A DNA stretch of 17,041 bases from Planctomycetota bacterium (lineage in GTDB: Bacteria; Planctomycetota; Phycisphaerae; WQYP01), in assembly GCA_021852225.1 (NCBI GenBank), contig JAJZOA010000077.1, positions 1 through 17,041 on the forward strand. Reading direction: 5' to 3'. How positions within the stretch are numbered: position 1 is the first letter of the stretch; each line of letters begins with the position of its first letter. This document shows, piece by piece, positions 1,836-17,041 of this stretch. The notes beneath the pieces were generated by a model. It searched no databases, was not told where the DNA came from, and saw only the letters and a program-made list of their open reading frames with translations. Position numbers and translations under genes: made by a program.

Positions 1836-1930
1836 AAAACTCTCCGGGCAATATGCCCAAAATCATAACTCAAAAGCCTGTAAGTCCAGCGGCCGAAAAC
1901 CACGTCGGATGCCTGCCGCCGCAGGACGGC

Positions 1931-2290: not shown

Positions 2291-3030
2291 TCGGCAGGCA
2301 AGTCTCCCGTGCCCAGAATATGGGCGGTCGGTTCATTTTTACGGGCAATCATGACCGCACCCACAAGGGAAATGGTCAAAAGAATGCCCGCCAGTTCCAG
2401 TGGAAGTGCGTAGCGCGAATATAAATTCGCACCCAGAAGTTCCAGGCTGCCCATGCCATGCACCGCAGCTTGCCCGGCCGCGAGCGGATGCATAAATCCA
2501 TTCGGTCCGGTATAAAACATCACCTGCAGCACGGTACCCAGCAGCACAAAACTGACCAGAATAGCCATGAATCCGTCTGCGCTATGGGTGTCATATTGCG
2601 CGGTGGCCGCCTCGCCGCCCTGGCTGGCCAGCATAATGACGAACACATAGGTCACCAATATGGCACCGGCATAAATAATGATAAGTACCACCGCAATAAA
2701 TTCCGCCATCAGCATGATGAACAGACCGGAAACCGCCAAAGTCATGAGTACAAAATAAAGAGCGGCATACAATGGCCGCGGATGACACACCACGCCTGTG
2801 GCCGATGCCAATGCTAATACCGCAAATGCGTAAAAGAATATGTTTGCAACCACTGCTCCCTGGCCGGCATGTACGGTTGTGGACAAATGAATCACCCAGG
2901 TAATTGCCAATCCCAGCGCCAAAACGCCGGTCAGGGCACCGAGTTTGACCAAATTAGACCGGCCGCGCGGCAGCAGCAGGTACAATGCAATCGCCCCTAG
3001 GGCTGTCGCAACTATAAGCGCATAATCCAT
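2287..3030 (-). CDS. nuoJ: NADH-quinone oxidoreductase subunit J (complex I)
   Basis: NuoJ (ND6-like) is a membrane subunit that couples quinone reduction to proton pumping in complex I. The signature TM3 segment AEFIAVVLIIIYAGAILV lies at about residues 109-126 of the 247-residue product, preceded by PLYAALYFVLMTLAVSGLF. I chose the ATG at 3030 (MDYALIVATALG) because it begins a hydrophobic helix and has AGG eight bases upstream. An in-frame ATG at 3126 would add 32 Arg-rich, non-membrane residues unlike any NuoJ. About 60 residues with two extra hydrophobic segments precede the region that normally starts NuoJ, and the protein is longer than the usual 165-200 residues. It is the first gene of the nuoJKL run; no nuoI is seen upstream. 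Confidence 0.92.
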   Translation of the reverse strand: MDYALIVATALGAIALYLLLPRGRSNLVKLGALTGVLALGLAITWVIHLSTTVHAGQGAVVANIFFYAFAVLALASATGVVCHPRPLYAALYFVLMTLAVSGLFIMLMAEFIAVVLIIIYAGAILVTYVFVIMLASQGGEAATAQYDTHSADGFMAILVSFVLLGTVLQVMFYTGPNGFMHPLAAGQAAVHGMGSLELLGANLYSRYALPLELAGILLTISLVGAVMIARKNEPTAHILGTGDLPAE

Positions 3031-4175
3031 AAACGACGCCTGTTCTCCAACGGGCCGGTGGTGCAAACTCTGTACCGGGCCAACGCGCCCCCTGCGGAAC
3101 AACTTCCGCCGGGATGGCGCGGTCAAACGCGGTCGGCGGGAATATGATCCCGGAAGACCGCAAACCCAGAATTATGGCGCTATGGGCAGGAATTGCAAGC
3201 CTTGCGCTTTGGAAGAAGCAATCGGCACGGAATAGGAACGGCCGAAAAGAGGTTGGCAATTTTTACGACAGCGGCCGTAAGACGCCCATCAAATCGAGAA
3301 TTTTAAGTCAAAACATTCGCACAAACGGGCCAAAACGGTTGATCCACATTTTTTTCAGGACAGTTGCGGATGAGACTCACCTGTAAAAATTAATGATTTT
3401 CTATGCGGATATGCGGCGGATGATTAAGACTGGCCGGGCGCGAATTCTTTATGCCAGTTGTGGCGTGTGCTGCACTTCCTTTCGTCCATAGTATTCGCGG
3501 AAGCCGGTCCCCGGCCCGCAATGACCAGCCGCCGAACGACCGCCGGACTTTGCTGGCCGATCGTGCCGCGGACCGCGTGGCAAATTATTTCCGGCGTATT
3601 CTGGTGCTGCCCCGCGATATTGGCCAATCTAAATCATCAAAAGACAGGGCGCTCGCATTCCGGGCAACTGCGGAGGCCGCAGGGTTCCTTTGCCTGTATG
3701 TCGGCGGCAACGGCGAAATTATCCATCCGGAGAAGTTGATCTCCCGCAAATTCGGGCCATGCTGATTTGGAACGCGCGGGCCTTTTTGAAGTATGGAATA
3801 TCCGGCGGTATTAAAAAGAAATTTGGCCAACAAATTGCCTCCAATAGGGTTACGTTATTCAGGGTCGCGGATTCGGTACCGGCGACGGGCAGCGATTCAA
3901 TGAACAATGATCAAAGGTCAAAGGTCAATAAAGGCCGACGGGAAGGCGGGCGGGTTACTGGCCGGTTTTGGCCGCCCGCTGACAGTGAACTTAGATTTGG
4001 AGCGTACAATACGCCCTGAACGACGGCTGACGAAAGCGAGCAATGGAGGCTTGAAATCGGAATGCGAGATTCGTCCATGTGTAGTTCACCGGCCTTGAAG
4101 TGGGCGTACAGGCAGTCACCGTGAACTAATGACGGCGACTGCCGCGGGAATCCTAAACGCGCCGGGCCTTAGATA
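3031..4175. other. Gene-poor intergenic stretch between nuoJ and the Avs-like gene
   Basis: No reading frame in these 1145 bases resembles a known protein; those present are short, lack good ribosome sites and have shadow-like composition. No tRNA or known RNA was recognised. Small structures are visible: an 8-bp inverted repeat GCGGGCGG/CCGCCCGC at 3946-3953 and 3972-3979; a 7-bp inverted repeat AGTTCAC/GTGAACT at 4083-4089 and 4121-4127; and a short direct repeat CAAAGGT/CAAAGGT near 3912-3925. The region should contain the promoter of nuoJKL and the 3' end of the Avs-like transcript, but I could not fix either. It may be decayed DNA from insertion of the neighbouring defence gene. Confidence 0.5.
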
Positions 4176-7100
4176 TTAACGTTTTATCGGGCGAATCTTG
4201 TGGTTCGTGATTCCGCCGACCAGGGAATCTCCCTTACGGTAGAACACGCCACTGAATTCAGCGATCTTCGGTACGATGCACTCTTTCGCTTCTGAGCTTA
4301 TGCAGCACCGCTCGCCAAGCAGCCCCCAGACGATTTCCCAGCCCGACTGCCGCAAGCGTTCGGTGAGTGTGTTCCGAAGGACGATGGCCGGCGGTGTTTC
4401 GGCACCGTATTTTGGGGGCGGCGAGGTGAAAATTGTGGTCCCGTCGGTGCCAACGAAGTTGAGATCGTCACCGGCCCAACGGGCACCAAGAGCCTTGCAC
4501 AGCTGGGGCGAGGGAATAAGGCCGCCATTGTATTCGCAGACCGCTTGCACGTGCGGGATTTCTATTTTTTGCAGCCATTCATCTGGTTTCTCGCACCGGC
4601 GCCCAATTTCTCGGTGGGCCTGCCCCCAGGGGTATTCACCGAGCCATCCCTGTCCGACTTCGACGCGCATGCACCCGTGGCCCCAGAAGTGCAGTTTCTC
4701 AATCGCAGCCACAAACGGCCTCAGGTTCGCTCTTCGCACGAGCCAGCTGCGAATATGAAGCCACATTTTAAGCCGGCCGTTTTCGCTTTCGGCCGTGTAA
4801 TAGGGAAGATTCTCGTTCCACTCATAATGGCCCGCGACGGCGAGGTGATCGGCGTCGCGACCGGGTGCGCCCCCTATATCGATGAGCGCGGTGAGATTGT
4901 CTGGTTTGGCCACCACCCACGCTTCGCGGTCAGGTACTGATTGGTCATCAGTGAGCGGATCAGGGTATTTGTCCCACCATGGGCGCTGCGTTGGGGGAGA
5001 ATCATTCGTTCCGGAATCACCCTCATCCGGAAGGTCGCGCAGGGGCTGTGAGGGGTCGAAATCGCGTGCCCATAAATTCCATGTTCCATCAAACGGCGGG
5101 GCTTTGTCCTCTCCCCGGCCACGCGTGAGGCGGTAATGATCGGAGAGATAAGCCTGTAATTGGTGAAGTGCGATCCATTGGTATTTTTTGCTAATCCTTT
5201 CTACGCGTGACTTTTCGACATCTACGGATTGCCTTCCCTTGCAGGGAAGGTCCCGCTCGTAATTGCCGAAAAGCTTCGGTGTCCAGCCAAGTTGTTTCAC
5301 ACGCTGAAGAACCCAGCGGCGGGCCGTCATTGCGTTAAACGGAATTTCGGCGGTTTTCTTCTTAAACTTCTCCTTGATACGAACGCCGGAGAATTGTTGC
5401 ACATGTGATTGCATGACATATCGGCCGAAATCGCCGTACATGCTGGTGCATGCCGGCTGGATGGAGCTTTTGATTTCTTCCCATCCTTTGGCATTTTCGA
5501 TTGGCTTTACCCTTGTCTCAGTCCAGATTTGCGGCCAATTGGAGGTATAAGGGGGGCGGTATCGCTTGGGATCAATCCGCGTCGGGAGGCAATTACGGTT
5601 GTTCGCGAGCTCCAGCACGCAACGTGCGTAGTCCCGAAGCAGGATATGCGCCGGCACGGATTTGCCAGCAAAAACGGTCTCGTACACCGCGCCGGCAAGA
5701 AGCCGAATCGCGGCAGCCTTTCGCTCTCTCATCGCTACGCCACAAGCGATGGCAAAGACGCGTTCTGCAATAAAAGGGTCATTGCAGTCGTGAAAATCCC
5801 AGACCAACTGTGCGGTTTGTTCGCACCTTCCTTCGAGGATACGAATTGCGGCAAGTGTTGCGCGGAGGCGGAATGGCTTGTGGTTGCTGCTCAGGAACCA
5901 CGCGAGCGCACGAGCCCAGAGCAGAGCTTGATTATTGGAGACAAGATTCTGTTGAACGCGGAGGGCCCATTTCACGATCAGTCCGGGCGCGCAATCACCG
6001 CTTTGCGAGACCATTGTGGAAATTTCCTTGGTCCAAATTTCGTCCCGCCGTGCGAGCGTCATTGGTTTCAGGCGACTGTGGAGGTAGTCGGCATTGTAGG
6101 GGTGGCCGGGGATCGTTGATGTGCGGAGCAGAGATGAAAGCAAGGAATCTAGGCCTACCCGTTTAGACGCGATCATTATTGGGTGGCTCTCCTTCCCAAA
6201 TGACTTGGCACCGCGCCAAGGTAAGGACGAAAGGAAGTCCAAGTGCACTTGGTGGAATAATTCACGGTTTTTTATGAGCGTGGCGACCTCGATTCCGAAT
6301 CGCTCGGGGAGCAAAATCGCCATGGCCCACATAATGCCTTGCAGCTTGCGGAATTCGGGCGGACTCTTGATGCGTCGGAGCGTGCCGTCTTTCGTCCATC
6401 CGGATTTCAGGGCGTTGGCGGTTTTAAACGGGCGAATCATCTTTTCTGCGATGAAATAGTCGGAGAAGCGTTCGTATGGAAATCGGACGGTCACCTGCGC
6501 CTCGGGGTCCGTTGGAGCGCGATAACAACCAACCTCCACCAGGAAACCGTTTGACCTGAGGTGCCGATAGAGTGATTTCGATTCACCCTGGATTGGGAAC
6601 AGTGCGTCAATTTTGGGCCTTATCGTCTGCATTGGCACGGCCATGCCATGGTTTGCCTGGATTAGCTCAGCCGCCAGTTCGATGGCCTGATGCGTCGTCT
6701 GTATCGGGCAGTCGATGTCGTGCAGTAATTTTGTGCAAATCTTTGACACTCGCTGGTCCATCACCTTTTTTAGCGTAATGGGGCCATTGGGTAACGGCGA
6801 GTTCTCAAACGCTTCGCAAAAAGTCTTGAGAAAAAGCGGGTTCTGGAATTCTTCCAATAACGGCGGGAGATGGTCGGCGTGGATATTGTAACCGTTGAAA
6901 TAACTGGCAACAGCATCAAGCATTCCGGCGCCGTAACCCCGGTGATTAATTGTCGCCCACGATTTATCAGTTCGCTTGGCAACAGCATCCGGCAGGGTTA
7001 GCTGCACGAAATCGCTTCGGCAACCGATGAGTAATCGGACATGCGGATGGCGCTCGAATTCTCTCGCGAATCCATTAAGATGGCTCCGCCAGAGGGACCG

Positions 7101-8414
7101 TTCCGAGCTTTCATTGATTGCGTCGATACACACTAAAGCCGGATGGCCCGATATATCGGCAGCTTCGTTGAGTACGGACAGAAAGTCTGACGCGCCTCCC
7201 TCCCATTGCAGCTTGGCGAGAAGTTGAGTCCACGGGTCGTTATTACCCGTAAAATGTTCTCCTAAAACCAATAATGCCGGCTGTTGCCGGCTGAGTGCTT
7301 GGTGGACAGCATTCGCGAGAAGATGGCTCTTTCCAGATCCGGCAGGCCCAATTACGATGGCTTTACGGGAATCGGCGCAGGCAAATCGCGACAGGAAACT
7401 GTCCAAATTTCGCAGTTCGGCCGCCAGGCGGACCAGCAACGTTAGCGGCCAGCCGAAGGGGCCACGGCGATGTGGCCATTTCTCTCGCTCCTCGGGCGAT
7501 GCTGTTGCCTGTTCCAGCTTGTCATTTAGCTGTTGGACGGCATTTTTCAGGTCGTCTATGGATGAACGGACGTCACTAAATGGCGGAACGCGCCGGCCAT
7601 CTCCAAAGCCGCGTGATGTTTTTTGAATAGCAGAGACAAAGATTTTGCATTCTTTTTGGGCCGCCCGCTTGGTTTCTTTTGCAGCCGCCGCTTCATGCAG
7701 TTTTCGACCTGCGTCGGAGACCGCCTTGACTATCCCGTAATAGTCGTTGGTGAAGCTAGCCTTCCGGAAAAATGCGTCTAGGCGTCTTTCAGAATCCGTT
7801 TGGATGTGGTGATCGGGCGTGTAGCGGCAATCCAAATCTTTTAGAGCAGAATCGACGCGACCAGCTAGCCATTCGATGGAGAATGGGTGGCGACCGAACC
7901 AGTAGTGGAGCTTTCCGCTTTGGGATGGCGGTGTGAGGAGGTTGAGGAGTTCCGACGCTCCCCACCATACATAATTGATTTTCCGCCGAAGACTTTTCTC
8001 CCTTGCACTCGGTTGCCATTGCTTGACCAGTTTGTTCCATTTCTCTATCTGCGATGGGCTTCTGTCAAGTGGGACAGCGACGTAATACTTGGTAAGTTTC
8101 GGGTGATTGTGTATTGCGGAGTTTACCGAGGCCGAAATTTGCTTCCACTGCGGGGCACCCAGTTGATCGAAGAGCTTTGCTTGGAGTCCAATTTCCTGGT
8201 CACCCTGCAGCGTCGCGAATGCTTCGACACCCCCGTCTCCTCCGGCCCCATTTACGCGGACCAACTCGAGGGCGCCTTTCAACTCAGATCTGAACAGTTG
8301 AACCGATAATTCCTCGAAAGCGGCAGAGCGCGTACCCTGGTATTCCCGAATATTTTGTAGGTCAATTTGCGGTGGTCTATTCATCTGGGCCTGCAATAAC
8401 ATATCATTACCCAT
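4176..8414 (-). CDS. Avs-like STAND NTPase with N-terminal PD-(D/E)xK nuclease (candidate anti-phage defence)
   Basis: The 1412-residue protein is arranged like Avs (AVAST) proteins. In that family a C-terminal sensor recognises a phage protein, the STAND ATPase oligomerises and an N-terminal nuclease cuts DNA. Visible parts are: a Mrr/PD-(D/E)xK-like motif set at residues 34-80, with E34/E35 in FEELSVQLF, D60 in GAGGDGGVEAF and Q78-A-K80; a linker that looks partly helical (about 210-310); Walker A GPAGSGKS at 356-363; Walker B ALVCIDAINE at 426-435; a GCRSDF strand at 464-469; an NPLFL motif at 525-529; and VRFPYERFSDYF at 643-654, before some 750 residues of unrecognised sequence. No transmembrane segment or signal peptide is seen. 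ATG codons at 8414, 8402 and 8384 are all possible starts and none has a strong ribosome site. The gene stands alone, with gene-poor DNA on both sides. The NTPase and nuclease calls are firm; the Avs assignment is from recall of motif order, and the exact type and phage trigger cannot be told. Confidence 0.8.
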   Translation of the reverse strand: MGNDMLLQAQMNRPPQIDLQNIREYQGTRSAAFEELSVQLFRSELKGALELVRVNGAGGDGGVEAFATLQGDQEIGLQAKLFDQLGAPQWKQISASVNSAIHNHPKLTKYYVAVPLDRSPSQIEKWNKLVKQWQPSAREKSLRRKINYVWWGASELLNLLTPPSQSGKLHYWFGRHPFSIEWLAGRVDSALKDLDCRYTPDHHIQTDSERRLDAFFRKASFTNDYYGIVKAVSDAGRKLHEAAAAKETKRAAQKECKIFVSAIQKTSRGFGDGRRVPPFSDVRSSIDDLKNAVQQLNDKLEQATASPEEREKWPHRRGPFGWPLTLLVRLAAELRNLDSFLSRFACADSRKAIVIGPAGSGKSHLLANAVHQALSRQQPALLVLGEHFTGNNDPWTQLLAKLQWEGGASDFLSVLNEAADISGHPALVCIDAINESSERSLWRSHLNGFAREFERHPHVRLLIGCRSDFVQLTLPDAVAKRTDKSWATINHRGYGAGMLDAVASYFNGYNIHADHLPPLLEEFQNPLFLKTFCEAFENSPLPNGPITLKKVMDQRVSKICTKLLHDIDCPIQTTHQAIELAAELIQANHGMAVPMQTIRPKIDALFPIQGESKSLYRHLRSNGFLVEVGCYRAPTDPEAQVTVRFPYERFSDYFIAEKMIRPFKTANALKSGWTKDGTLRRIKSPPEFRKLQGIMWAMAILLPERFGIEVATLIKNRELFHQVHLDFLSSLPWRGAKSFGKESHPIMIASKRVGLDSLLSSLLRTSTIPGHPYNADYLHSRLKPMTLARRDEIWTKEISTMVSQSGDCAPGLIVKWALRVQQNLVSNNQALLWARALAWFLSSNHKPFRLRATLAAIRILEGRCEQTAQLVWDFHDCNDPFIAERVFAIACGVAMRERKAAAIRLLAGAVYETVFAGKSVPAHILLRDYARCVLELANNRNCLPTRIDPKRYRPPYTSNWPQIWTETRVKPIENAKGWEEIKSSIQPACTSMYGDFGRYVMQSHVQQFSGVRIKEKFKKKTAEIPFNAMTARRWVLQRVKQLGWTPKLFGNYERDLPCKGRQSVDVEKSRVERISKKYQWIALHQLQAYLSDHYRLTRGRGEDKAPPFDGTWNLWARDFDPSQPLRDLPDEGDSGTNDSPPTQRPWWDKYPDPLTDDQSVPDREAWVVAKPDNLTALIDIGGAPGRDADHLAVAGHYEWNENLPYYTAESENGRLKMWLHIRSWLVRRANLRPFVAAIEKLHFWGHGCMRVEVGQGWLGEYPWGQAHREIGRRCEKPDEWLQKIEIPHVQAVCEYNGGLIPSPQLCKALGARWAGDDLNFVGTDGTTIFTSPPPKYGAETPPAIVLRNTLTERLRQSGWEIVWGLLGERCCISSEAKECIVPKIAEFSGVFYRKGDSLVGGITNHKIRPIKR

Positions 8415-8714
8415 GGATTGTAGTTGAAGGTCTGAGGGTACGTCTACATTGCATCGTTAATTGGTAGCAATTCGTCAAAACCGGACCGGTGGAGAGGCCT
8501 GACGGGTTGGGGTTGCCGGCCTCGGCGTGGCGGATCGGGCTGTTGGGAACCGCCTTCGGCAGAATGGGAGATGGCGATGGATTGCCGTGATTAAAGCGGC
8601 TGTCGAACATGTTGCGACGGGGCGGGAATGGTTTGCGATTGGTTTGTTACGTCGGTTGGTTGCGATAAGAACCTGGGTGTCGCGTTTTTCTGTTCGCGGC
8701 GGCTTCATTTTTGG
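8415..8714. other. Intergenic region upstream of the Avs-like gene
   Basis: About 300 bases separate the Avs-like gene from the tail of the Tes-like operon. Short open frames occur on both strands (for example 8527-8751 plus), but none has a convincing ribosome site or recognisable sequence. The promoter of the Avs-like gene should lie here; I found no clear -35/-10 pair. Confidence 0.45.
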
Positions 8715-8843
8715 TCATTTAAAATGTTGCGGCCCGGACAACGCGCAATAAGCCAGCAGGGCGAAAAAAATAAGTGCCAGAATTAGAAATATGCCCAGTA
8801 CAATGGAGACTATAAAGAGAAAAATCCGGAGCAGTATTCTCAT
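8715..8843 (-). CDS. Small single-span membrane protein (42 aa)
   Basis: The frame encodes a 42-residue peptide. Two early arginines (MRILLRIF) are followed by about 27 almost uninterrupted hydrophobic residues and a short polar tail ending GPQHFK. This is the layout of a one-helix inner-membrane peptide with its N-terminus inside. It starts 19 bases after the stop of the Tes-like gene, so it is probably the third member of that operon. An upstream in-frame ATG at 8951 would overlap the Tes-like gene by about 90 bases and add a Pro/Arg-rich stretch that is the neighbour's reading shadow, so I prefer the ATG at 8843. The ribosome site is weak (GGTGAT just before the ATG). No family recognised. 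Confidence 0.5.
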   Translation of the reverse strand: MRILLRIFLFIVSIVLGIFLILALIFFALLAYCALSGPQHFK

Positions 8844-8862
8844 AATATCACCATTCGGACAA

Positions 8863-10341
8863 TCAGGGCGCGTTCGACAGGGTCCGGGTTCTGTGGGCTT
8901 CATGCGATGAAGGATCAGTCGAAAGAATATCCAGCGGAAGTGCGTATCCATTAAGGCGGCGTAATTCGGTCAGGCGCTTTTCCTTTCCATCCCGGTAGAA
9001 CATGTTAAACGTGTCAAACGGAATGATTCGCCCATCTGGATGAACAATATGGACGCAGCTTCGCTTGACGGATCGCACGTCAAAATTCCATGGATCCAGG
9101 AACTGCATAATGATGATACGAAACACGTTTTTGTAGTTTAAGTCCGCGGGTGTTGATATTGCGGGCAGGCAGCAAAGCAGGCGGCTTAAGGCGTGGCTTG
9201 CCGACTCGGGCGAATGATTTGTGGCAAACGCCTTTAGCAGGGCCCGGGCGACATCGGAATTTCGCTCGTACACAATGGTGCTGCCCTCCGCGGAAAGCAG
9301 AAGCTTAGGGTCCATCAGTCCGGTAAGCGGTGTGACCGAACCGTTGAGTTTCAGGGCGTAGGCCATGGCCAGACAATCCGGATGGCAGGGCACAGGTATG
9401 ACATCCGCGGGCTTAAAAACGGAGGTCTGCGATAAAATATTGGCCCGAACTTCGGAAACCGTCAGCCGATCCACGCCACAATCGAAACCCTCCAGACGAC
9501 CGGCTCGCTGCACGGGTTGAAACGATACTCCGCGGACGGCCGGCTGTTGCAGGGCAAAATCGATAATGGGACCAATTTGATCATCGTTCACGCCTTTGGC
9601 CAGCGTGACAACCAGAGTGGTGGATATATTTAGATTATTTAATTTATCCAATGCCTTCAGGCGGGTCGCCAGGATATCTTTGCCGCGCAGTGCAACCAGC
9701 GGTCCGGCGGTTAATGAATCAAATTGGAGGTAAATTTCAAACCCAGGCGTGTAATCGGCCAGCCGGCGGGCGAAAGCGTCGTCCGCAGCAATACGCAGAC
9801 CATTGGTATTCAGCATCAAATGCTTGATCGGGCGGCGACGCGCGGCATCAAGCACCGCGAAAAAGTCCGGGTGCAGGGTCGGTTCGCCCCCGCTGATCTG
9901 GACGACATCCGGCTGGCCTTCATTGGCGACGACGCAATCCAGCATAAATTCAATTTGTTCCAGGCTGCGGTGCGTCAGCCGATGTGGCCCGGATTCGGCA
10001 TAGCATACCGGGCAGGTTAAATTGCACTGATCGGTAATTTCAACAAGGGTAAGGCAACTGTGTTGTTCGTGGTCCGGGCACAGGCCGCAGTCATAGGGGC
10101 AGCCATGGCGTATCGGGGTGTTGAATTTCAGGGGCATCTGCCCGGGCTTGATAAAATCCCGCTGCATGCGATAAAAATCGGGATCTGTCGAAATAAGAAC
10201 TTTTTCCAGCTTGTGCTGCGGGCACCATTTATACATATAGATGCGATTATCCTGCTGAACAATTTTGGCTTCCACCTTCCGCAGGCAACTCGAACAGACG
10301 CTGGTGGTCAGGTCAAGAAATAGATAAGGACGGTCTGCCAT
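8863..10341 (-). CDS. Radical SAM protein of the tetraether lipid synthase (Tes)/MJ0619 family
   Basis: Enzymes of this family use S-adenosylmethionine and several iron-sulfur clusters for radical chemistry on unactivated carbons. Archaeal Tes joins lipid tails to make membrane-spanning tetraethers. The 492-residue product has the family layout: an N-terminal rubredoxin-like Cys/His site (C16, C19, C40, H43); an auxiliary-cluster motif GCPYDCGLCPDHEQHSC (C81, C85, C88, C96); the radical SAM motif CNLTCPVC (C106, C110, C113); SGGEPTLHP at 150-158; the SFQPVQRAGR strand at 273-282; and late cysteines in PVPCHPDC (C319, C323), near 389-390 and at C429. FLDPWNFDVRSVKRSCVH near 414-431 also matches the family. 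It starts three bases after the stop of the Lgt-like gene, indicating one transcript. Family membership is well supported. The substrate is not known; a pterin or other lipid substrate is possible. Confidence 0.85.
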   Translation of the reverse strand: MADRPYLFLDLTTSVCSSCLRKVEAKIVQQDNRIYMYKWCPQHKLEKVLISTDPDFYRMQRDFIKPGQMPLKFNTPIRHGCPYDCGLCPDHEQHSCLTLVEITDQCNLTCPVCYAESGPHRLTHRSLEQIEFMLDCVVANEGQPDVVQISGGEPTLHPDFFAVLDAARRRPIKHLMLNTNGLRIAADDAFARRLADYTPGFEIYLQFDSLTAGPLVALRGKDILATRLKALDKLNNLNISTTLVVTLAKGVNDDQIGPIIDFALQQPAVRGVSFQPVQRAGRLEGFDCGVDRLTVSEVRANILSQTSVFKPADVIPVPCHPDCLAMAYALKLNGSVTPLTGLMDPKLLLSAEGSTIVYERNSDVARALLKAFATNHSPESASHALSRLLCCLPAISTPADLNYKNVFRIIIMQFLDPWNFDVRSVKRSCVHIVHPDGRIIPFDTFNMFYRDGKEKRLTELRRLNGYALPLDILSTDPSSHEAHRTRTLSNAP

Positions 10342-10344
10342 AAA

Positions 10345-11133
10345 TCAGCCCGCGGCCTCCAGTTGAACCGCCACGTCTTTTTTCTGCGGCAACGAAAGTT
10401 TTCCCAGAAGCCAATACATGCAATAGCCAAAAACAGGCAGACAGAGCCACTGAATGGCCGTTAAGCCAAGGCAGGTCCAATGGGCGGGTTTGAGAAAATC
10501 AATCAGGAACCGGTAACCAGTGTACGCCGCCATGAATAAGCGAAATCGCACGCCCGGTATGCGGTGACGGCCCAGGCCCAGTAGCACGAGGCCCAGGAGG
10601 AATAGAAACAGGATATCGTAAAGCTGCGTGGGGTGTCGCGGAACGCCATCGCCAAAGTTGACACCCCATGGCAAATTCGTGGGAGAACCACATGTACCAT
10701 CCGCAAGACCGGTAAAAAAGCAGCCCACGCGCCCAATCATCATTCCCAGCATGACAGGAAGTACCATCGGATCCCCTGTGGAGCCAGTGATCCGCAGGAT
10801 TTTTTTTCCCAGCTCCACCCCAAGCCAACCCCCCACCAGCCCGCCGACCACTTCCTGCCCGCCGCGCAGCAACATCCAATTAAAATGGTTGGCCAGAAGT
10901 GATATCGCCAATTCGGGGTTTTGCGCCCAAGCCAGCAGACGACTCCCGACCAGCGATCCGAAAAACATAAAAACCAGCAGCCAAACGTTCTTTTGAATAT
11001 TCAGAGTTGATGGGGATGTGCGCAAACGATTAATGACGTACCAGGTTATACCGACAAGATAAGCGAGAGCTTCCGCCGCTGGGTGAACAGGCACGGTTAG
11101 ACCGAAAGGATGAAAGATCACTGGAAAGTGCAT
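10345..11133 (-). CDS. Lgt-like membrane protein lacking canonical catalytic residues
   Basis: Lgt moves a diacylglyceryl group from phosphatidylglycerol to the lipobox cysteine of prolipoproteins in the inner membrane. This 262-residue polytopic protein keeps the Lgt frame: GRVGCF at 134-139 (R135 matching E. coli R143), GSPTNLPWGV at 149-158, HPTQLYD at 167-173 and YRFLIDF at 207-213 (R208 matching R239). Key positions differ: the Lgt FHGG motif reads VVGG at 95-98, so H103 is lost; N146 is replaced by C138; and E243 by D212. It therefore looks like a paralogue with a different acceptor or chemistry rather than the housekeeping enzyme. The start at 11133 has GGTGA six bases upstream. It is the first gene of an operon with the Tes-like gene, pointing to lipid modification. 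Automated annotation would probably call it lgt, which I consider doubtful. Confidence 0.8.
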   Translation of the reverse strand: MHFPVIFHPFGLTVPVHPAAEALAYLVGITWYVINRLRTSPSTLNIQKNVWLLVFMFFGSLVGSRLLAWAQNPELAISLLANHFNWMLLRGGQEVVGGLVGGWLGVELGKKILRITGSTGDPMVLPVMLGMMIGRVGCFFTGLADGTCGSPTNLPWGVNFGDGVPRHPTQLYDILFLFLLGLVLLGLGRHRIPGVRFRLFMAAYTGYRFLIDFLKPAHWTCLGLTAIQWLCLPVFGYCMYWLLGKLSLPQKKDVAVQLEAAG

Positions 11134-11171
11134 AGTAATTCACCGGTTCCTGTGTGCCTTTTATTCCTTAG

Positions 11172-11201
11172 ATAGTACCATGGCATGCCGAATACTCGCA
11201 A
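11172..11201 (-). promoter_or_regulatory. Possible sigma-70-type promoter for the Lgt-like/Tes-like operon
   Basis: On the minus strand TTGCGA (11201-11196) and TACTAT (11177-11172) are separated by 18 bases, each matching four of six consensus positions. Transcription would begin about 30 bases before the Lgt-like ATG. The match is only moderate and such pairs arise by chance. Confidence 0.3.
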
Positions 11202-11234
11202 TAGGGAATTGATTTTCGCCATGTTGTCAAGAAG

Positions 11235-11273
11235 TAGAATTGTCACCCCTTAGCCGAAATAGAAGTGTCACCC
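11235..11273. repeat. Pair of 14-bp direct repeats, insertion-sequence-end-like
   Basis: TAGAATTGTCACCC at 11235-11248 and TAGAAGTGTCACCC at 11260-11273 differ at one base and start 25 bases apart. Repeated short boxes of this kind are typical of the transposase-binding ends of some insertion-sequence families (IS21- or IS481-like). No transposase gene is present, so this would be a solo end or remnant. A regulator binding site is the alternative. Confidence 0.5.
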
Positions 11274-11322
11274 GGGCATCAATGGTTCGCGGATGCAGCC
11301 GCGGATTTTACGGATTCCTCTG

Positions 11323-11364
11323 GATTGGAACGGTCTGATTGGAGCGGCCTGATTGAAACGGATC
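11323..11364. repeat. Three-unit 14-bp imperfect tandem repeat
   Basis: The units GATTGGAACGGTCT, GATTGGAGCGGCCT and GATTGAAACGGATC follow one another without spacer at 11323-11336, 11337-11350 and 11351-11364. They share the pattern GATTGRARCGGNYY. As 14 is not a multiple of three and no gene reads through, this is a non-coding array. It may be a protein-binding site upstream of the secreted hydrolase gene or a simple slippage product. Confidence 0.6.
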
Positions 11365-11466
11365 ATGCTTTGTTACACCGGCAATCATGGTTTAAGGATA
11401 AGCCTGCGGCGCGACCCGGCGGCCACGGGTCTTGTTGTGCATCGTCAGCGTATAAGCGCTTGCGCT

Positions 11467-11492
11467 GGCCGGGTGGCTTGCCGCCCGCGGCC
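11467..11492. repeat. Strong GC-rich hairpin in the lgt-like/hydrolase intergenic region
   Basis: GGGTGGC (11471-11477) pairs with GCCGCCC (11480-11486) through seven base pairs including one G-U. Outer GGCC (11467-11470) pairs with GGCC (11489-11492) around a two-base bulge. No T-run follows on either strand, so it is not a typical intrinsic terminator. It could be a REP-like element or part of a leader. The rest of the 522-base interval (11134-11655) holds no recognisable gene. Confidence 0.4.
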
Positions 11493-11655
11493 TCATGGCC
11501 CGCCATCAACCGGTAATTGCAGGTGTGGCCGAGCACCAATGGTAAATGGAGGAATGCAAGCGGAAGTATTTTCCGGCGTTATAGTTAGCTTGGTCCGGCG
11601 CTATTCGCATTGGTGTTGTATGCAAAAATTCAAGCCGGACGGACAGGAAAAGGCA

Positions 11656-13008
11656 ATGAATTATCGTCTGTTTTCCAGTGTTATATGTCTGCTGGCTATC
11701 CTGGCGAATGCGGGTGTTGGCCATGCGGCTGGCGCTATAGGTCTGCGGATTTCGGTGAATCGAACCAGTCTGCTTGAAGGGCAATGTGTGGTGGTAACCG
11801 GGACCGCCAAAACAGCACAGAAAGCGCCGATTTCCGGATTGAGAATCGAGGCCGTTGTCAACGGCAAGCGCTGGTGTGCCGGACAGACCACATTGGCTTC
11901 CGGCGTTGTGCATTTGCTGCTGCCGCTGCCGGAGCCGGGGATCAACAGGATTACTCTTCACGGTGGCAACGTCGTTTCGATGCCGGTTAAAGTTCTGGTG
12001 AAGCGGCGGGTTTTTCACATCATTACGGATCCAAAGCACTTAATCGGCATGGAATATGAAACCTGGTTCGGTCCGGGTTACGCCCAATGGGGGCACGAAG
12101 AGGCCGAGCCGGTGCTGGGTCACTATAGTTCGCTGGATTCGCGCGTGCTGCGCCAGCAGACGCTTTGGTTCAACCAGATGGGCATCAACTTTGTGGAGCT
12201 GGACTGGACGAACAATCTGACCGGGCCGTTCCCCGACGCAACCGCCCGCGAATGCATCGCCTCCAACAATGCATTGTTTCATTTATATGCACATATGCGG
12301 CAACACCCCAAGGTCGTGTTCCTCATGGGGCCGGAGCACAATGTATGGTTGAACCATACCACCCCCTACACCGGGCCATGGTACACCAGCCAGGTGAATT
12401 ATATTTATGACCATTACATCAATCGTCGGAAATACCGGCATATTTATTTGCGGTATCATCATAAGCCACTGCTGCTGCTGTATTTGAATGGTCCACGATT
12501 TGCGCATCCGCCGGTCATACACGACCCGCGTTTTACCATCCGGTTTGTTGGCGCATGGCTGGAGTATACGAAAGAACAGCGGTATGGCGTCTGGTCGTGG
12601 TATGACCAGAAAGCCACTCCGACTTTTCATCATGGGCGGCCGGAGGCCTTAACTGTCGCCAGTGGTTATCCGGCTATTCAATCACCCGGGGCCGGGCTGA
12701 ATAACTGGCTTTCACCGGATGCGGGCGGCAAAAATTATGGCGAAACGTATCGTACGCAATGGCGGGTGGCGGATAAATATTTCCCGCACTTTCTGTTTTT
12801 ATGCCAGTGGAATGAATTTGAACCACCCGATCAATTTAATGTGAATTTGAGCAATGATATGGAACCTACGTTGATGACTGAAACCGGTTCCCACCAGGCC
12901 AGCGGCTGGGGCTTTTTTTACAATGATCTGACCCGCCGGGAAATAGCCCGTTACCATCGCCTGATCACGGCGCAACGGCCAGCACGGAAGGATTCCGTCG
13001 CAAAATAG
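11656..13008 (+). CDS. Secreted GH99/DUF5010-like glycoside hydrolase-type protein
   Basis: The 450-residue product starts with a signal peptide (MNYRLFSSVICLLAILANAG, probable cleavage after GHA at 24). A beta-rich domain (about 28-115) of the kind seen as Ig-like modules comes next, then a domain resembling GH99/GH71/DUF5010 (beta/alpha)8 proteins. Hallmarks are ETWFGPGYAQWGH at 135-147, VLGHYSSLDSRVLRQ at 153-167, INFVELDWTNNL at 177-188 and LCQWNEFEP at 382-390, the last resembling the WNEW-type strand of these families. Such proteins act on mannans or related glycans. The substrate here cannot be read from sequence, and activity is not proven. The start at 11656 has AGGAAAAGG just upstream; the longer frame back to 11353 adds 101 residues without protein character. 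It is transcribed alone and convergent with the YHYH gene. Confidence 0.7.
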   Translation: MNYRLFSSVICLLAILANAGVGHAAGAIGLRISVNRTSLLEGQCVVVTGTAKTAQKAPISGLRIEAVVNGKRWCAGQTTLASGVVHLLLPLPEPGINRITLHGGNVVSMPVKVLVKRRVFHIITDPKHLIGMEYETWFGPGYAQWGHEEAEPVLGHYSSLDSRVLRQQTLWFNQMGINFVELDWTNNLTGPFPDATARECIASNNALFHLYAHMRQHPKVVFLMGPEHNVWLNHTTPYTGPWYTSQVNYIYDHYINRRKYRHIYLRYHHKPLLLLYLNGPRFAHPPVIHDPRFTIRFVGAWLEYTKEQRYGVWSWYDQKATPTFHHGRPEALTVASGYPAIQSPGAGLNNWLSPDAGGKNYGETYRTQWRVADKYFPHFLFLCQWNEFEPPDQFNVNLSNDMEPTLMTETGSHQASGWGFFYNDLTRREIARYHRLITAQRPARKDSVAK

Positions 13009-13368
13009 TGCATAAGTGGAAGAACTTGATTGAACTGTATGATTTGCAGGTATGCGGCCGGATATCGGCGGATCCGCGGGCCTTTTTTGGGCTTAAAGAA
13101 GTCCGAAAAGCGGATTCTGTGGGACCATAAGATCAATGTTTACGGGCTTTGATCCATTTTGCAAACTATCGCGGCATGTATTCACTTGCCCAACAGACGG
13201 AAGCGGCGGTTCACTGAGCTTTTGTGCGGGGCGCAGTCATTGCGTCTATGGGCGGAAGGTGACTGTTCGTCCTTTCATAGATAGTGAATTCGGATAGCAG
13301 AAATTTGCTTCGGTTCAATCCGGATGCCCTGCAATGCGGCGCACTGCAGGCCGGAATCGTTTGGTGAA
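13009..13368. other. Convergent intergenic region with possible terminator
   Basis: No gene is seen in these 360 bases between two converging genes. A stem GCCG/CGGC (13057-13060 with 13066-13069) and an overlapping perfect palindrome GCGGATCCGC (13068-13077) are followed by GGGCC and six Ts (13083-13088). This could end transcription of the hydrolase gene, although the 3' arm does not pair cleanly next to the T-run. Confidence 0.4.
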
Positions 13369-14379
13369 TCAATAGCCGCCATCCGCACCCGGCGGGCCGA
13401 ATGGCCGAGGGCCTGGGCCGGGGCGACCGAATCCGCCGCCACCTCCGCCCGGACCAAAGCCGTTGCCGCCACCGCGTCCGCCACGTCGGCCGCCGCGGGG
13501 TGGCTGCTTGTAAAAACTGCGGTCCGGTGTTCCGCGAAAATATCGCGGAATGAAGGGAAACGCATGAGATGCCACATAATAATACGTGCCGTCCGGATAT
13601 TCCGGAGTTATGCCATACCGGCCGTTGGCCTGGTCCAAATCTCCCAACCCATGGACATATTCAAAATCACCAGTGTAGCGCCCATCATAGCGGCCGCCCG
13701 GACCATCCGGTGAGCCGGGCCGTTCGCCACGCTTCAGGCGGTAGCTGGTCCGCAATTCCCGCACATTGCTGTGCACATTCCTGGCTTCCGCATATCCCCA
13801 AGGGCCGTATATGGGAAAACCGTCGGCGGCATAACCTATCAACATTACTTTTCCCCATGCATGGCGGGATTTAATTAACTCCGTCGGAACGCCGTGGTAA
13901 TGGTACGTGCCGTCGCGCTGCACATGGGCGTGGCTCGCGTCCAGACCCAGATTGCCAAAACCCGTCAGCAGAGCGTAATTCCAGATTGAATCGCGCTGCT
14001 GATGCCAGAATCCGGCGGTGCCGGGATCGAATACCACACCGTCCAACGCCACGCCGAAGTCGATGCGGTTGATGAGTTTCATAAACCTTGAATTGCCCAC
14101 GGGATGAAGCGGCATCCGGAAATGAAAATCCTGCGGACTTATGGCATTGGGACATTGGCGGTCTGGAAAATGTCCGACCTTATGGTCCGGAATGTCATTG
14201 GAGGTGACATAGCGATAGTGGCCACGGGTATAAAAACGAACCTTGCTTGCGTATGCCGGCCAGACATTGCACGGCTCCAGCGAATTATCGAACGCTTCGG
14301 CTGTTTTTTGGGTTGCCAGCGCAACGCCGCTGGCGGCCAGAATGCTCAGCCAGGTTCTGCGTGAAATCGGTTCGTTCAT
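13369..14379 (-). CDS. Tat-exported YHYH-domain protein with Gly/Pro-rich tail
   Basis: The 336-residue product begins MNEPISRRTWLSILAASG, a twin-arginine signal (R7, R8), with a probable cleavage near AEA at 27-29. It is thus expected to be folded before export, often a sign of a bound cofactor. The YHYH domain is shown by LDASHAHVQRDGTYHYHG (146-163), GFPIYGPWGYAE (187-198) and YGITPEYPDGTYYYV (255-269). YHYH proteins are secreted His-rich proteins of unsettled function and many are annotated only by this domain. After about residue 293 the chain is Arg/Gly/Pro repeats to the end, probably disordered. The ATG at 14379 was chosen because AGGAG lies seven bases upstream and it begins the Tat signal; an ATG at 14412 adds eleven unrelated residues. 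It is monocistronic on the evidence here. Confidence 0.85.
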   Translation of the reverse strand: MNEPISRRTWLSILAASGVALATQKTAEAFDNSLEPCNVWPAYASKVRFYTRGHYRYVTSNDIPDHKVGHFPDRQCPNAISPQDFHFRMPLHPVGNSRFMKLINRIDFGVALDGVVFDPGTAGFWHQQRDSIWNYALLTGFGNLGLDASHAHVQRDGTYHYHGVPTELIKSRHAWGKVMLIGYAADGFPIYGPWGYAEARNVHSNVRELRTSYRLKRGERPGSPDGPGGRYDGRYTGDFEYVHGLGDLDQANGRYGITPEYPDGTYYYVASHAFPFIPRYFRGTPDRSFYKQPPRGGRRGGRGGGNGFGPGGGGGGFGRPGPGPRPFGPPGADGGY

Positions 14380-14720
14380 AAAAACACTCCTTTGCCGACA
14401 TTCCGCAAGCACTATCCGAAATAAGTCGGCGGCCCATGCATAACCGCCAGCCGTTTAGTGTGGACCCAAGCGAGGCAGGTTTTGAATTTTCCGTAGGTGG
14501 GATGATATTTGTCGGCTGTCGCCGAAGCCGCCAATATACCGATATGTGCCACCGCACGGTTTGGTGAAACAGCGGGCTGACACGGGCGACCGAAAATATT
14601 CTGATTCACCACAATTAGCCGCAATAGATGGTCCGCCGCCCCCCGGCCGCCAGACGGTCGGAAATTTCAGTGGCCTTGTGTTTTTCCTCTGATTCGGCTA
14701 TTTTCAAGGGTTCACATTCC
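14380..14720. other. Intergenic region between the YHYH gene and tRNA-Ala
   Basis: This interval separates diverging genes. Short open frames on the minus strand (such as 14412-14624) resemble no protein family I know. It should hold the YHYH promoter, which I could not locate, and the tRNA promoter. Confidence 0.45.
14676..14704 (+). promoter_or_regulatory. Possible promoter of tRNA-Ala
   Basis: TTGTGT (14676-14681) and TATTTT (14699-14704) are 17 bases apart, and the -10 box ends 16 bases before the tRNA. Match to the sigma-70 consensus is weak (three and four of six), so the call rests mainly on position. Confidence 0.3.
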
Positions 14721-14793
14721 GGGGGCATAGCTCAGTTGGGAGAGCGTCTCGATGGCATCGAGAAGGTCAGGGGTTCGAGTCCCCTTGCCTCCA
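14721..14793 (+). tRNA. tRNA-Ala (anticodon GGC)
   Basis: A full cloverleaf can be drawn over 73 bases. The acceptor GGGGGCA (14721-14727) pairs with TGCCTCC (14786-14792), with discriminator A at 14793. The anticodon stem is TCTCG/CGAGA with loop ATGGCAT, giving anticodon GGC. The T-arm is AGGGG/CCCCT with loop TTCGAGT. The third acceptor pair is G-U, the hallmark identity element of alanine tRNAs. The terminal CCA is not encoded. It reads codons GCC and GCU. Confidence 0.97.
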
Positions 14794-14802
14794 TTGGAAT
14801 GT

Positions 14803-14836
14803 AAGGTCGGCCGCGAAAAGACGCCCCGGCCTTTTT
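14803..14836 (+). terminator. Rho-independent terminator after tRNA-Ala
   Basis: AAGGTCGG (14803-14810) pairs with CCGGCCTT (14826-14833) through eight pairs including one G-U, with a 15-base loop. The 3' arm runs into five Ts (14832-14836). It lies ten bases after the tRNA and matches an intrinsic terminator. Confidence 0.75.
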
Positions 14837-15171
14837 AGTTTTGCGGGGCCGCCTTTTACCAGCCGCGTCCTGAAATTGTTTGGGGATCGCCCGGATGTTA
14901 TTCCGGTATTGATCAGGGTTAGCGGTGGCCGCCAAGCGGCCGACCAGGTCCCACAATGAACACCGGAGGAAGGCAATGGATAACGGCCCGGCGCATTTCT
15001 TTCAAATTCTGTCCAAATGTTGATAATTGAACGTACCAGGCGCCGGTCAGTTTGCGTTTTGTGCACCGTACTGCGTGAGCTTCTCTGCCTGGCGGGCTGG
15101 GCTTTTTTTTGTAAATTGCCGGCGCAAACCATTGGCGGCATTCGGAATCGGGCCGACCACAGGAGATCGCC
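14837..15171. other. Intergenic region before the FAD oxidoreductase gene, with a possible 15-codon leader ORF
   Basis: No known gene lies in these 335 bases. A 15-codon frame at 14976-15023 (MDNGPAHFFQILSKC) has a near-ideal GGAGG six bases before its ATG. It ends about 150 bases before the oxidoreductase start, so it could be a leader peptide. A run of eight Ts (15106-15113) follows a G/C-rich stretch of weak hairpin potential. Confidence 0.4.
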
Positions 15172-16272
15172 ATGCCGAAAAAACTTGTGCTACTTGGCGG
15201 TGGTCATGCCCATCTCCATGTACTGGCGCATCTTTCCGATTACATTTTCACGGATATTCAGGTCACGCTGATTTCGCCACGGACGTTCTGGTATTCGGGC
15301 ATGGGGCCGGGAATGCTGGGCGGGTTCTACAGCCGCGCCGACGCAACCGTGGACCTGGGGAAACTGGTATCGCGCGCCGGCGCGGATTTAATTGACGGAA
15401 TGGCGGAAAGTTTTAACCCGCTTACCGCACAGGTGCGTTTGACTGACGGCCGCACCGTGCATTTTGATGCGCTTTCCCTGAATCTGGGCAGCGGCATAAT
15501 TCAGGGGGCCATCCCCGGACACGAATATGCCACCACAGTCAAACCGGTTTCCAATTTGCACCGCCTGCATGAACAATTGGATATGGTGCGGCCCAAACAG
15601 CTTGCGGTGGTGGTCATTGGCGGCGGTCTGGCGGGTATTGAAACAGCGGCCAATCTGGCTAAGCTGCTGACCAAAATAAAAACCGATTGGACCTGTATTC
15701 TGCTGGCCGGCGGTCGCGGTCTGGCGGCGGGCTTTCCCCGGAGATTCGTACGACAGGCCGAACGGGAACTTATGCGGCTGGGCATAACCGTCATGGCGGA
15801 AGTCAGCGCGATAGATGTATCTCCCGAAAGTGTTCTGCTGGACAGTGACGAAAGACTTGAATCACAATTAACCATTCTGGCCACCGGTGTGCAGCCGCCT
15901 CAAATAGTCGCTGATTCCGGCGTGACGGTGGATTCAAGCGGGGCGATGGTGGTAACGCCGACACTGCAAAGTGTTTCCCACCCGAATATTTTCGGCGGTG
16001 GGGACTGTATCACCCTGATGAACCGGAAACTGGCCAAAGCGGGCGTATACGCCGTGCGCCAGGGACCGATCTTGCGGCATAATCTGCGGGCATTTTTTTC
16101 GGGCACCCCCATGCGGCATTTCCGGCCGCAAAAAAAGTTTCTGCTTATCGCGAGTTTAGGCGGTCAACGGGCGCTGGGAAGTTGGGGTGGCTTAACATTT
16201 GGCGGGAAAAAGGCGTTATGGCTGAAGCACTACTTGGATCGCAAATTTATGGAACGGTATCAGGACAGATAA
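15172..16272 (+). CDS. NDH-2/SelD-N-terminal-like FAD-dependent pyridine nucleotide oxidoreductase
   Basis: This 366-residue flavoprotein has two Rossmann folds. The N-terminal FAD site is LLGGGHAHLHVL (7-18), the second dinucleotide site is VVIGGGLAGIETA (147-159), and the FAD-proximal SHPNIFGGGDCI motif is at 269-280. The GGGHAHL start and the tail GGLTFGGKKALWLKHYLDRKF (about 339-359) are typical of a group related to type II NADH dehydrogenases. The same module is fused to selenide, water dikinase (SelD) in some bacteria, but no SelD part follows here. Likely role is electron transfer from NAD(P)H to a quinone or other acceptor at the membrane surface; the C-terminal region may form the membrane-facing helix. 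AGGAG lies six bases before the ATG. The acceptor cannot be told from sequence. Confidence 0.8.
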   Translation: MPKKLVLLGGGHAHLHVLAHLSDYIFTDIQVTLISPRTFWYSGMGPGMLGGFYSRADATVDLGKLVSRAGADLIDGMAESFNPLTAQVRLTDGRTVHFDALSLNLGSGIIQGAIPGHEYATTVKPVSNLHRLHEQLDMVRPKQLAVVVIGGGLAGIETAANLAKLLTKIKTDWTCILLAGGRGLAAGFPRRFVRQAERELMRLGITVMAEVSAIDVSPESVLLDSDERLESQLTILATGVQPPQIVADSGVTVDSSGAMVVTPTLQSVSHPNIFGGGDCITLMNRKLAKAGVYAVRQGPILRHNLRAFFSGTPMRHFRPQKKFLLIASLGGQRALGSWGGLTFGGKKALWLKHYLDRKFMERYQDR

Positions 16273-16368
16273 ATGCGGCTTAGCGATGCGGCTTGTGGGA
16301 AATCCGCCGATACAAATTAATTGATATGCGGTAATTTCAGCGCTTGCAGCATCAAACACAAGGCATAG

Positions 16369-16398
16369 TTGACAATTCAAATCTGAATACTGTATGTT
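16369..16398 (+). promoter_or_regulatory. Candidate promoter of the riboswitch-controlled reductase gene
   Basis: A perfect -35 box TTGACA (16369-16374) is followed after 18 bases by TATGTT (16393-16398), four of six matches to TATAAT. Transcription would start about 15-25 bases before the first conserved part of the cobalamin riboswitch, which is where a promoter is expected. Confidence 0.55.
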
Positions 16399-16424
16399 GT
16401 GGGTGTTGTCGGTCTACACGGCTT

Positions 16425-16625
16425 TCGAGGTTGCTCGCAATCTGAAAAAGCGGCGTGTGGCGCAAAAGGGAACCTGGTGAAAATCCGGGACTGCCCCGCA
16501 GCGGTAAACGGGAACGACCGCCGTAAAATGCACTGTTCTGCCATGTCAGAATGGGAAGCAACGGCCAGTAGGAACCGCGTCTGAAACAGGCGCATCAAGC
16601 CCGCAAGTCCGAAGACCTGCCGACA
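16425..16625 (+). ncRNA. Cobalamin (B12) riboswitch
   Basis: Conserved landmarks occur in the right order. They are AAAGGGAA (16466 onward), GGTGAAAATCCGGGACTGCC (16476-16495), CCCGCAGCGGTAA (16494-16506) and the B12 box AGTCCGAAGACCTGCC (16606-16621). Together they define the adenosylcobalamin-type aptamer. Such RNAs usually lower expression of the downstream gene when the coenzyme is bound. A 7-bp hairpin CGCCCGC-TCC-GCGGGCG (16628-16644) follows directly but lacks a real T-run. Control may therefore be translational or through another structure in the 210-base leader, such as the ACCTTC/GAAGGT hairpin at 16660-16675. Confidence 0.95.
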
Positions 16626-16835
16626 ATCGCCCGCTCCGCGGGCGTCTTAAATTGCCAACACCTTCGCGGGAAGGTACGGGTATGGGTTTGCACGCGCTGT
16701 GGCTTTGTGGCTTCATGTGACATGGCGCGGGTTGAATTCGTTTCCGTCTGCTTTTCCGTGAATATCCGAAACGGCTTATGTGTGCCGGCGTGTATCGGCA
16801 TATGCCTACTGGCGCGCGATCAAATGGAGATTTTG

Positions 16836-17041
16836 ATGAATTTAAATTCATGTATGTTAACGGTCCGGAAGCGTGACGGCCGCGAAGTCGATTTTGAAAT
16901 TGGCCGAATCGCCAACGCGATTACCGCCGCGTTTTGTGCCCAGCTCGAAATTCCCGCTGGCCGCCCGCTGCCGGAACCGACTGCTGCGGAAATTCAGGCC
17001 CTGGTCCTGCGGGTGCGGGAGCAGGTCTTACACGCCGCGGA
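16836..17041 (+). CDS. Ribonucleotide reductase, N-terminal ATP-cone (cut by window edge)
   Basis: Sixty-eight codons are present before the right edge. Residues 8-35, including VRKRDGREVDFEIGRIANAI, match the ATP-cone, the allosteric dATP/ATP-binding domain at the start of many ribonucleotide reductase large subunits (and of NrdR). The ATG at 16836 has GGAG six bases upstream. NrdR is unlikely because its cone is preceded by a zinc ribbon, absent here. The gene lies under the cobalamin riboswitch. That is compatible with a class I or III (B12-independent) enzyme repressed when B12 is available; class II NrdJ cannot be excluded because the diagnostic catalytic residues are outside the window. 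Confidence 0.85.
   Translation, partial: MNLNSCMLTVRKRDGREVDFEIGRIANAITAAFCAQLEIPAGRPLPEPTAAEIQALVLRVREQVLHAA

Follow-up and report, generated by a model that had tools for sequence, protein, structure and literature searches.

The window analysed here, a 17,041-nucleotide stretch of a Planctomycetota genome (contig JAJZOA010000077.1, positions 1 to 17,041), carries three tightly packed genes on its minus strand. They encode a 262-amino-acid Lgt-like membrane protein (10345..11133; PF01790), a 492-amino-acid radical S-adenosylmethionine (rSAM) protein of the Tes/TrsS superfamily (8863..10341; PF04055 and PF23545) and a 42-amino-acid, single-helix membrane peptide, the proposed substrate (8715..8843, with its ATG at 8843), which is recognised from its open reading frame (ORF) and from counterparts at related loci. 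The gaps of 3 bases between the Lgt-like and rSAM genes and 19 bases between the rSAM gene and the 42-residue ORF, confirmed by the ORF coordinates, agree with an earlier interpretation of this DNA (the sequence-only reading), which described an operon of a divergent Lgt, a Tes-family rSAM enzyme and a one-helix membrane peptide, inferred together to make, anchor or transfer an unusual lipid. The peptide starts with a positively charged N-terminus (MRILLR), continues as a transmembrane (TM) helix and then LLAYC, the cysteine of which is Cys33, and closes with a nine-residue tail. The codon of Cys33 (8745..8747, minus strand), identified from the sequence and from a Cys-anchored comparison of 59 small proteins, lies at the outer helix end, where lipidation is proposed to take place. 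Searches of Pfam and NCBIfam gave no family for the ORF at an E-value of 0.1.

The Lgt-like protein scores 84.7 bits against PF01790 (LGT; cut-off 24.9), in line with a predicted Lgt fold, and 31.4 bits against the lgt equivalog TIGR00544, below the cut-off of 118.9. Compared with E. coli Lgt (5AZB), it retains R135, Y204, R208 and H167 (E. coli R143, Y235, R239 and H196), and carries V96, C138 and H17 in place of His103, Asn146 and Tyr26, respectively. In the 80 Lgt-like proteins of the related loci described below, hereafter the pair proteins, the equivalents of the phospholipid-side residues R143, R239 and Y235 are each present in 80/80. The equivalent of His103, a residue of the HGGL motif reported to be essential in Lgt (PMC4728403), is found in 0/80, compared with 11 of 19 ordinary Lgts (18 plus that of E. 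coli). Additionally, Asn146 is replaced by Cys, which 6 of the 19 ordinary Lgts also have at this position, Tyr26 is replaced by His, and His17, Glu21 and Cys138 are fixed. Judged by these residues, the Lgt-like proteins form a distinct family with fixed positions of its own, and the description of the window protein as a divergent Lgt is borne out.

Among PDB sequences, the rSAM protein has its best match in the tetraether synthase of M. jannaschii (7TOL, with E = 4.7e-66), and the fold predicted for the window enzyme is that of Tes, also known as GDGT-MAS (MJ0619; 7TOL, 7TOM), with the rubredoxin-like (C16/C19/C40/H43), N-auxiliary (C81/C85/C88/H91) and radical-SAM (C106/C110/C113) metal sites in place. 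Tes also comes first among the structural neighbours of this predicted fold; those after it include MoaA as well as SuiB and SkfB, which are maturases of ribosomally synthesized and post-translationally modified peptides (RiPPs). The C-terminal ligands are distinct from those of Tes. Specifically, C319, C390, C391 and C429 are kept in 41/41 pair rows, whereas the column of window residue D443, which holds Cys in 13/13 archaeal Tes, holds Asp in 33 and Glu in 8 of these rows. The column of Met439, a labile ligand described in the cited passages as fully conserved among archaeal Tes homologues (PMC9433317), contains Met in 21/41 pair rows, and the Tes C-terminal ligand set is thus not shared. 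As the M439A variant of M. jannaschii Tes is still active (PMC9433317), this column informs Tes membership and not activity. Acidobacterial pair rows, counted apart, display the same C-terminal pattern in 7/7, except for C319 (6/7).

Phylogeny separates the two groups as well. In the rSAM tree, which left out 7 of 127 rows with a broken frame or fewer than 400 amino acids (L037, L002, L068, L049, L125, L126 and L127) and all rows more than 85% identical to a retained row, the pair enzymes form a 48-row clade (support 100/100) separate from a 21-row Tes clade (100/99). Among the 120 protein matches listed for the window enzyme, those named are from Tepidisphaeraceae, Humisphaera or Phycisphaerales, which makes a phycisphaeral planctomycete the probable host. 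The assignment to the Tes family therefore holds for the predicted fold, whereas the clade of its own, the other C-terminal ligands and an NCBIfam score of 286.3 bits against Tes (NF045702), below the cut-off of 450, set the enzyme apart from Tes proper. A kinship with non-lipid pterin enzymes, raised earlier as a possible objection, does not refute the lipid connection, and pterin chemistry was rejected as a candidate function, because the structure paper judges the uncorroborated pterin annotation of the Tes prototype MJ0619 to be incorrect (PMC9433317).

The highest NCBIfam score of the rSAM protein is for TrsS (NF045646; 326.8 bits), likewise below its cut-off (490), and in the midpoint-rooted tree, which has some long branches, the pair clade joins the TrsS side on a separate branch. 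If the rSAM enzyme had a non-lipid substrate, as TrsS may have, the module would act outside lipid chemistry, and both the affinity to TrsS over Tes and the C-terminal ligands unlike those of Tes would be expected. The literature mention of TrsS in the cited material is a table entry, which would suit such a substrate too. We regard this explanation as very unlikely, since the enzyme is closely partnered with a phospholipid-enzyme fold that has its donor residues intact. A TrsS-like role by name alone was not adopted, given the score under the cut-off and the nature of that mention.

The Lgt-like and rSAM genes are adjacent far beyond this genome. A scan of GTDB-species contigs by alignment of Lgt-like proteins only found 556 places that encode a relative, and the loci set comprises the best 80 of these 556 by similarity, so that distant Lgt-like proteins are under-sampled. 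In 77/80 loci, an rSAM gene whose product is 53-71% identical to that of the window lies downstream on the same strand, at a distance of up to 1.5 kb in 70/77 and up to 4 kb in the other seven. Of the three loci without an adjoining rSAM gene, two are from genomes that carry it elsewhere, and none was found in the genome of the third. According to record titles and tree labels, the loci cover ten phyla (Planctomycetota, Verrucomicrobiota, Bacteroidota, Acidobacteriota, Chlorobiota, Ignavibacteriota, Cyanobacteriota, Pseudomonadota, Bacillota and Thermoplasmatota), with Mucilaginibacter, Hymenobacter, Nodosilinea and Paenibacillus among the carriers. The conserved adjacency anticipated by the sequence-only reading is thereby established, and the objection that it might be confined to a single genome falls away. 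All-against-all clustering of the 80 loci (45 largest clusters viewed) revealed no further gene common to many loci; the next clusters cover at most 21/80 loci and are mostly Mucilaginibacter neighbours, small membrane proteins included, and other phylum-spanning clusters (DnaJ is one example, a frame on the strand antisense to the pair another) reach at most 7 loci.

Two phylum samples test the adjacency independently of the best-80 choice, with the proviso that only part of the first-look candidates was scored per genome and misses are possible. Among 199 Acidobacteriota genomes, matches to the Lgt-like profile split cleanly into 14 genomes with at least 184 bits and remaining matches of at most 105.5 bits. 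Pair-clade rSAM proteins (54-70% identity) occur in at least 12 genomes, all within the 14 Lgt-like carriers, and the two genes lie within 0.8 kb of each other in 11/12 and 2.6 kb apart in one; in one of the 11 close pairs (genome G262), the contig begins inside the Lgt-like gene. The two remaining carriers have the Lgt-like gene at a contig end (G193) or a more distant rSAM gene 1.1 kb away (G371, locus L133). Among 294 Planctomycetota genomes, 27 carry the rSAM gene (at least 52% identity, one partial). The Lgt-like gene precedes it in 17/27 (16 within 70 bases, one at 1.8 kb), and in four loci with rSAM proteins 53-60% identical to that of the window (L155, L157, L158 and L159), a more divergent Lgt gene is located directly downstream. 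Contig edges cut the possible Lgt position in five loci, with none in the remaining part, and L156 has no Lgt-like neighbour, which gives an adjoining Lgt in 21/22 testable loci. Planctomycete sister rSAMs (36-43% identity) have an Lgt-like gene nearby in 5/5 loci examined (L162-L166; four within 0.4 kb, one at 3.7 kb), and acidobacterial rSAMs at 37-39% have one in 1/3 (L133), within short flanks. At the planctomycete loci L168 and L169, two Tes-superfamily rSAM genes stand in tandem (about 33% and 28% identity to the window rSAM), and no Lgt-like gene is nearby.

An ordinary second Lgt placed by chance beside an unrelated rSAM gene would explain the PF01790 match above the cut-off. Its probability is next to negligible and it was rejected, because adjacency in the loci scan and in both phylum samples contradicts it. 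In addition, the pair is conserved across ten phyla, the Lgt-like proteins have their own fixed residues, and a further Lgt-family match besides the operon copy is present in 32/34 host genomes searched. The Lgt-like gene and the rSAM gene were also seen in archaeal metagenome-assembled genomes (L038, L059 and also L058; Thalassarchaeaceae, Poseidoniaceae and a euryarchaeote), for which contamination is possible; the operon copy is the only PF01790 match in the two archaeal genomes searched.

The third gene recurs as well. We defined small cysteine TM (Cys-TM) proteins as those of 30-260 amino acids in which a hydrophobic segment of 15 precedes a Cys located among the final 21 residues, and applied this rule to 72 loci, leaving out 5 of the 77 with fewer than 300 bases after the rSAM gene. 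A rule-passing protein is encoded in 60/72 loci, in 58 within 700 bases downstream of the rSAM gene and in 2 only between the Lgt-like and rSAM genes (L029 and L042), compared with 4/72 for an antisense control of the downstream region and 2/53 for other small TM ORFs more than 1 kb away in the same loci, one of these two belonging to a set locus. In six of the 12 rule-failing loci (L041, L043, L053, L066, L067 and L070), a small protein has its Cys at an earlier helix end, as seen by eye and without a control. Because a Cys-TM protein occupies the same place in 58/72 loci vs 4/72 antisense, the 42-residue ORF is unlikely to be a chance ORF; the one-helix membrane peptide is taken as real and, by its layout, as a minimal form of the small Cys-TM proteins. 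In a wider comparison that also allowed 900 bases upstream, such proteins were found in 5/5 loci of the planctomycete sister set, 0/3 loci of acidobacterial rSAMs at 37-39% identity and 0/5 TrsS loci, and beside Tes proper in 2/33 (archaeal 2/22, bacterial 0/11), which is not above background. Unlike Tes, the pair rSAM sits in an operon with Lgt-like and Cys-TM proteins.

Downstream small genes overlap the rSAM stop codon in 40/57 cases, and an identical four-base overlap accounts for 34 of these. Two or more small Cys-TM proteins are encoded in 19/59 loci, and in 17/19 the copies are less than 45% identical. None of the named families is reached above cut-off by the small proteins (20 proteins in Pfam, 9 in NCBIfam), the nearest being DUF4870 with 24.3 bits vs a cut-off of 25 in one protein. 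Very small forms have 42 amino acids in the window and 32, 44, 63 and 63 in L047, L050, L051 and L040. Substrates this small, their multiple copies per locus and the presence of SuiB and SkfB among the structural neighbours of the rSAM fold, beside MoaA, would also be expected in peptide maturation, in which the rSAM enzyme would modify the peptide (for example with a thioether at Cys) and the Lgt-like protein would add a lipid, yielding a modified lipopeptide as signal or toxin; we consider this unlikely. As individual cases, the Lgt-like gene of L036 is followed by genes for four small TM proteins in tandem (6642-8495), all of which carry a Cys close to the last helix end, the same genome encodes elsewhere (L154/L167) an rSAM, a second Lgt-like gene and two more small Cys-TM proteins, and the small Cys-TM protein of L038 has an EF-hand-like N-terminus by eye.

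Across the small proteins, helix and Cys recur while N-termini vary. In 37 Bacteroidota proteins, no residue other than Met1 and the Cys is invariant; since the proteins were chosen by their Cys, its constancy follows from the selection, and what matters is how little else is fixed. The residue at -2 to the Cys is Gly, Ser or Ala in 57/59 small proteins, that of the window included, and in 55/59 Lys and Arg are more frequent on the N-terminal side of the helix than behind the Cys. According to the positive-inside rule, the positively charged flank faces the cytoplasm, which places the Cys at the outer face, the arrangement known from lipoprotein signal peptides. Small proteins and lipoprotein signal peptides share a charged N-side, a hydrophobic helix and a Cys at its far end. 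Distinct from lipoproteins, the Cys mostly lies close to the C-terminus and is not followed by a mature domain, and the small residue is at -2 rather than -1. The N-terminal signal helix of lipoproteins closes with the lipobox [LV][ASTVI][GAS]C (PMC8689077); a relaxed form, [LVIMF][ASTVIG][GAS]C, is present in 13/59 small proteins, and the window peptide has LAYC, so the linked proteins do not qualify as lipobox substrates. MYXO-CTERM proteins, the myxosortase targets, also combine a TM segment, an invariant Cys and a proposed Lgt-like lipidation (PMC11980579). However, the cited passages describe a Cys motif before the helix, a topology inverted relative to lipoproteins and cleavage by a protease (PMC11980579), whereas in the small proteins the Cys comes after the helix, and many loci have no additional gene in common. 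Tat tail-anchored proteins, as presented in the relevant passages (PMC10924467), were considered and are unrelated.

A phospholipid-enzyme fold, a tail-coupling fold and a Cys at the outer face suggest lipid transfer followed by radical chemistry on the tails. Taken together, we tentatively propose, at somewhat less than even chances, a three-part lipid-modification module in which the small protein is lipidated and the lipid is then altered by the rSAM enzyme. In particular, the small membrane protein would be a dedicated substrate whose TM helix enters from the cytoplasmic side and presents its Cys at the outer face. The Lgt-like enzyme would bind phospholipid as Lgt does and move the lipid-glyceryl group onto this Cys; its rebuilt acceptor side, without His103 and with His17, Glu21 and Cys138 fixed, would fit a non-lipobox acceptor. 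The Tes-fold rSAM enzyme may then abstract hydrogen from the lipid tails and couple or otherwise modify them. What the sequences show is the conserved linkage of the three genes, the recurrent Cys with its topology signals, the two predicted folds and the active-site residues kept or lost; from these we infer Cys lipidation, the Lgt-like enzyme as its agent, rSAM action on lipid tails and this order of steps. The Cys at the outer helix end, which the sequence-only reading missed, points to protein lipidation rather than, or besides, a free lipid, and a free membrane-spanning lipid as the product is not supported by the present analysis in the form in which it was put forward.

Several observations weigh against the proposed module. 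Without His103, the Lgt-like protein might not act as a transferase at all, yet 8/19 ordinary Lgts also lack this residue. The Cys motif does not read as a classical lipobox, and the rSAM enzyme looks cytosolic while the Cys would lie outside. After inspection, no small Cys-TM protein was seen in 6/72 loci (L002, L006, L045, which is ambiguous, L048, L059 and L072). Further acidobacterial pair loci, which have short flanks, pass the rule in 3/10, and the planctomycete reversed-order variant does so in 1/5, where the match is the Lgt's own frame, so that none is recognised there.

A free-lipid pathway, in which the rSAM enzyme joins or alters the tails of free phospholipids, with the Lgt-like protein presenting or trimming the lipid and the small protein acting as an accessory subunit whose Cys serves as hydrogen donor or contact, would account for the Tes fold and for the phosphatidylglycerol-handling residues retained in the Lgt-like protein. 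According to the cited passages, bacterial Tes homologues, Phycisphaerae included, have been published as possible enzymes of branched glycerol dialkyl glycerol tetraethers (brGDGTs), and surveys count them as possible makers of membrane-spanning lipids (PMC8941075, PMC11868695). We rate this pathway as rather unlikely. Divergent multiple copies argue for substrates and are odd for a subunit, the constant helix and Cys with variable N-termini are likewise against it, and so is the background level of small Cys-TM proteins beside Tes proper. Across 7 genomes, a profile of the Bacteroidota small proteins has 10 matches, every one of them at the operon, which fits both substrate and subunit, and which speaks neither for nor against unrelated clients in trans. 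A bolder version of the three-part module, a lipid staple, is a long shot: the rSAM enzyme would couple the tail tip of the Cys-bound lipid to that of a lipid in the inner leaflet by its tail, and the product would be a membrane-spanning lipid covalently tied to the small protein, in a system spread by gene transfer over ten phyla, archaea included.

No description of a set of Lgt, rSAM and cysteine peptide was found in the open PMC literature, subscription papers and preprints being outside this scope. The novelty is the three-gene system, both enzymes being variants within known families. To judge from its sequences, this gene set, common to very different microbes, looks like a new attachment of lipid to a small membrane protein followed by alteration of that lipid. 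If true, it would represent a second, radical-chemistry branch of bacterial protein lipidation and a protein context for Tes-fold enzymes of bacteria, and the prediction narrows to one cysteine in a small peptide. Because the pair enzymes share a superfamily with Tes but fall in another clade and another operon, counts of Tes homologues may need to separate both.

Adjoining the operon, the minus strand encodes a 1412-amino-acid AVAST-like defence protein (4176-8414), which scores 691 bits against Avs2 (NF041813; cut-off 1000) and weakly resembles Avs4 in its N-terminal part. Translations at 3-3126 (minus strand) resemble, by eye, what we take to be the complex I subunits NuoL, NuoK and NuoJ. 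On the other side, a 551-amino-acid frame (11353-13008, plus strand), with an exported-looking start within the frame by eye, has no Pfam or NCBIfam match at an E-value of 0.1. It is followed by a YHYH-domain protein (13369-14412, minus strand; PF14240, 216 bits) and an oxidoreductase (15172-16272, plus strand) that scores 304.2 bits against TIGR03169 ('Nterm_to_SelD'), just below the cut-off of 310.
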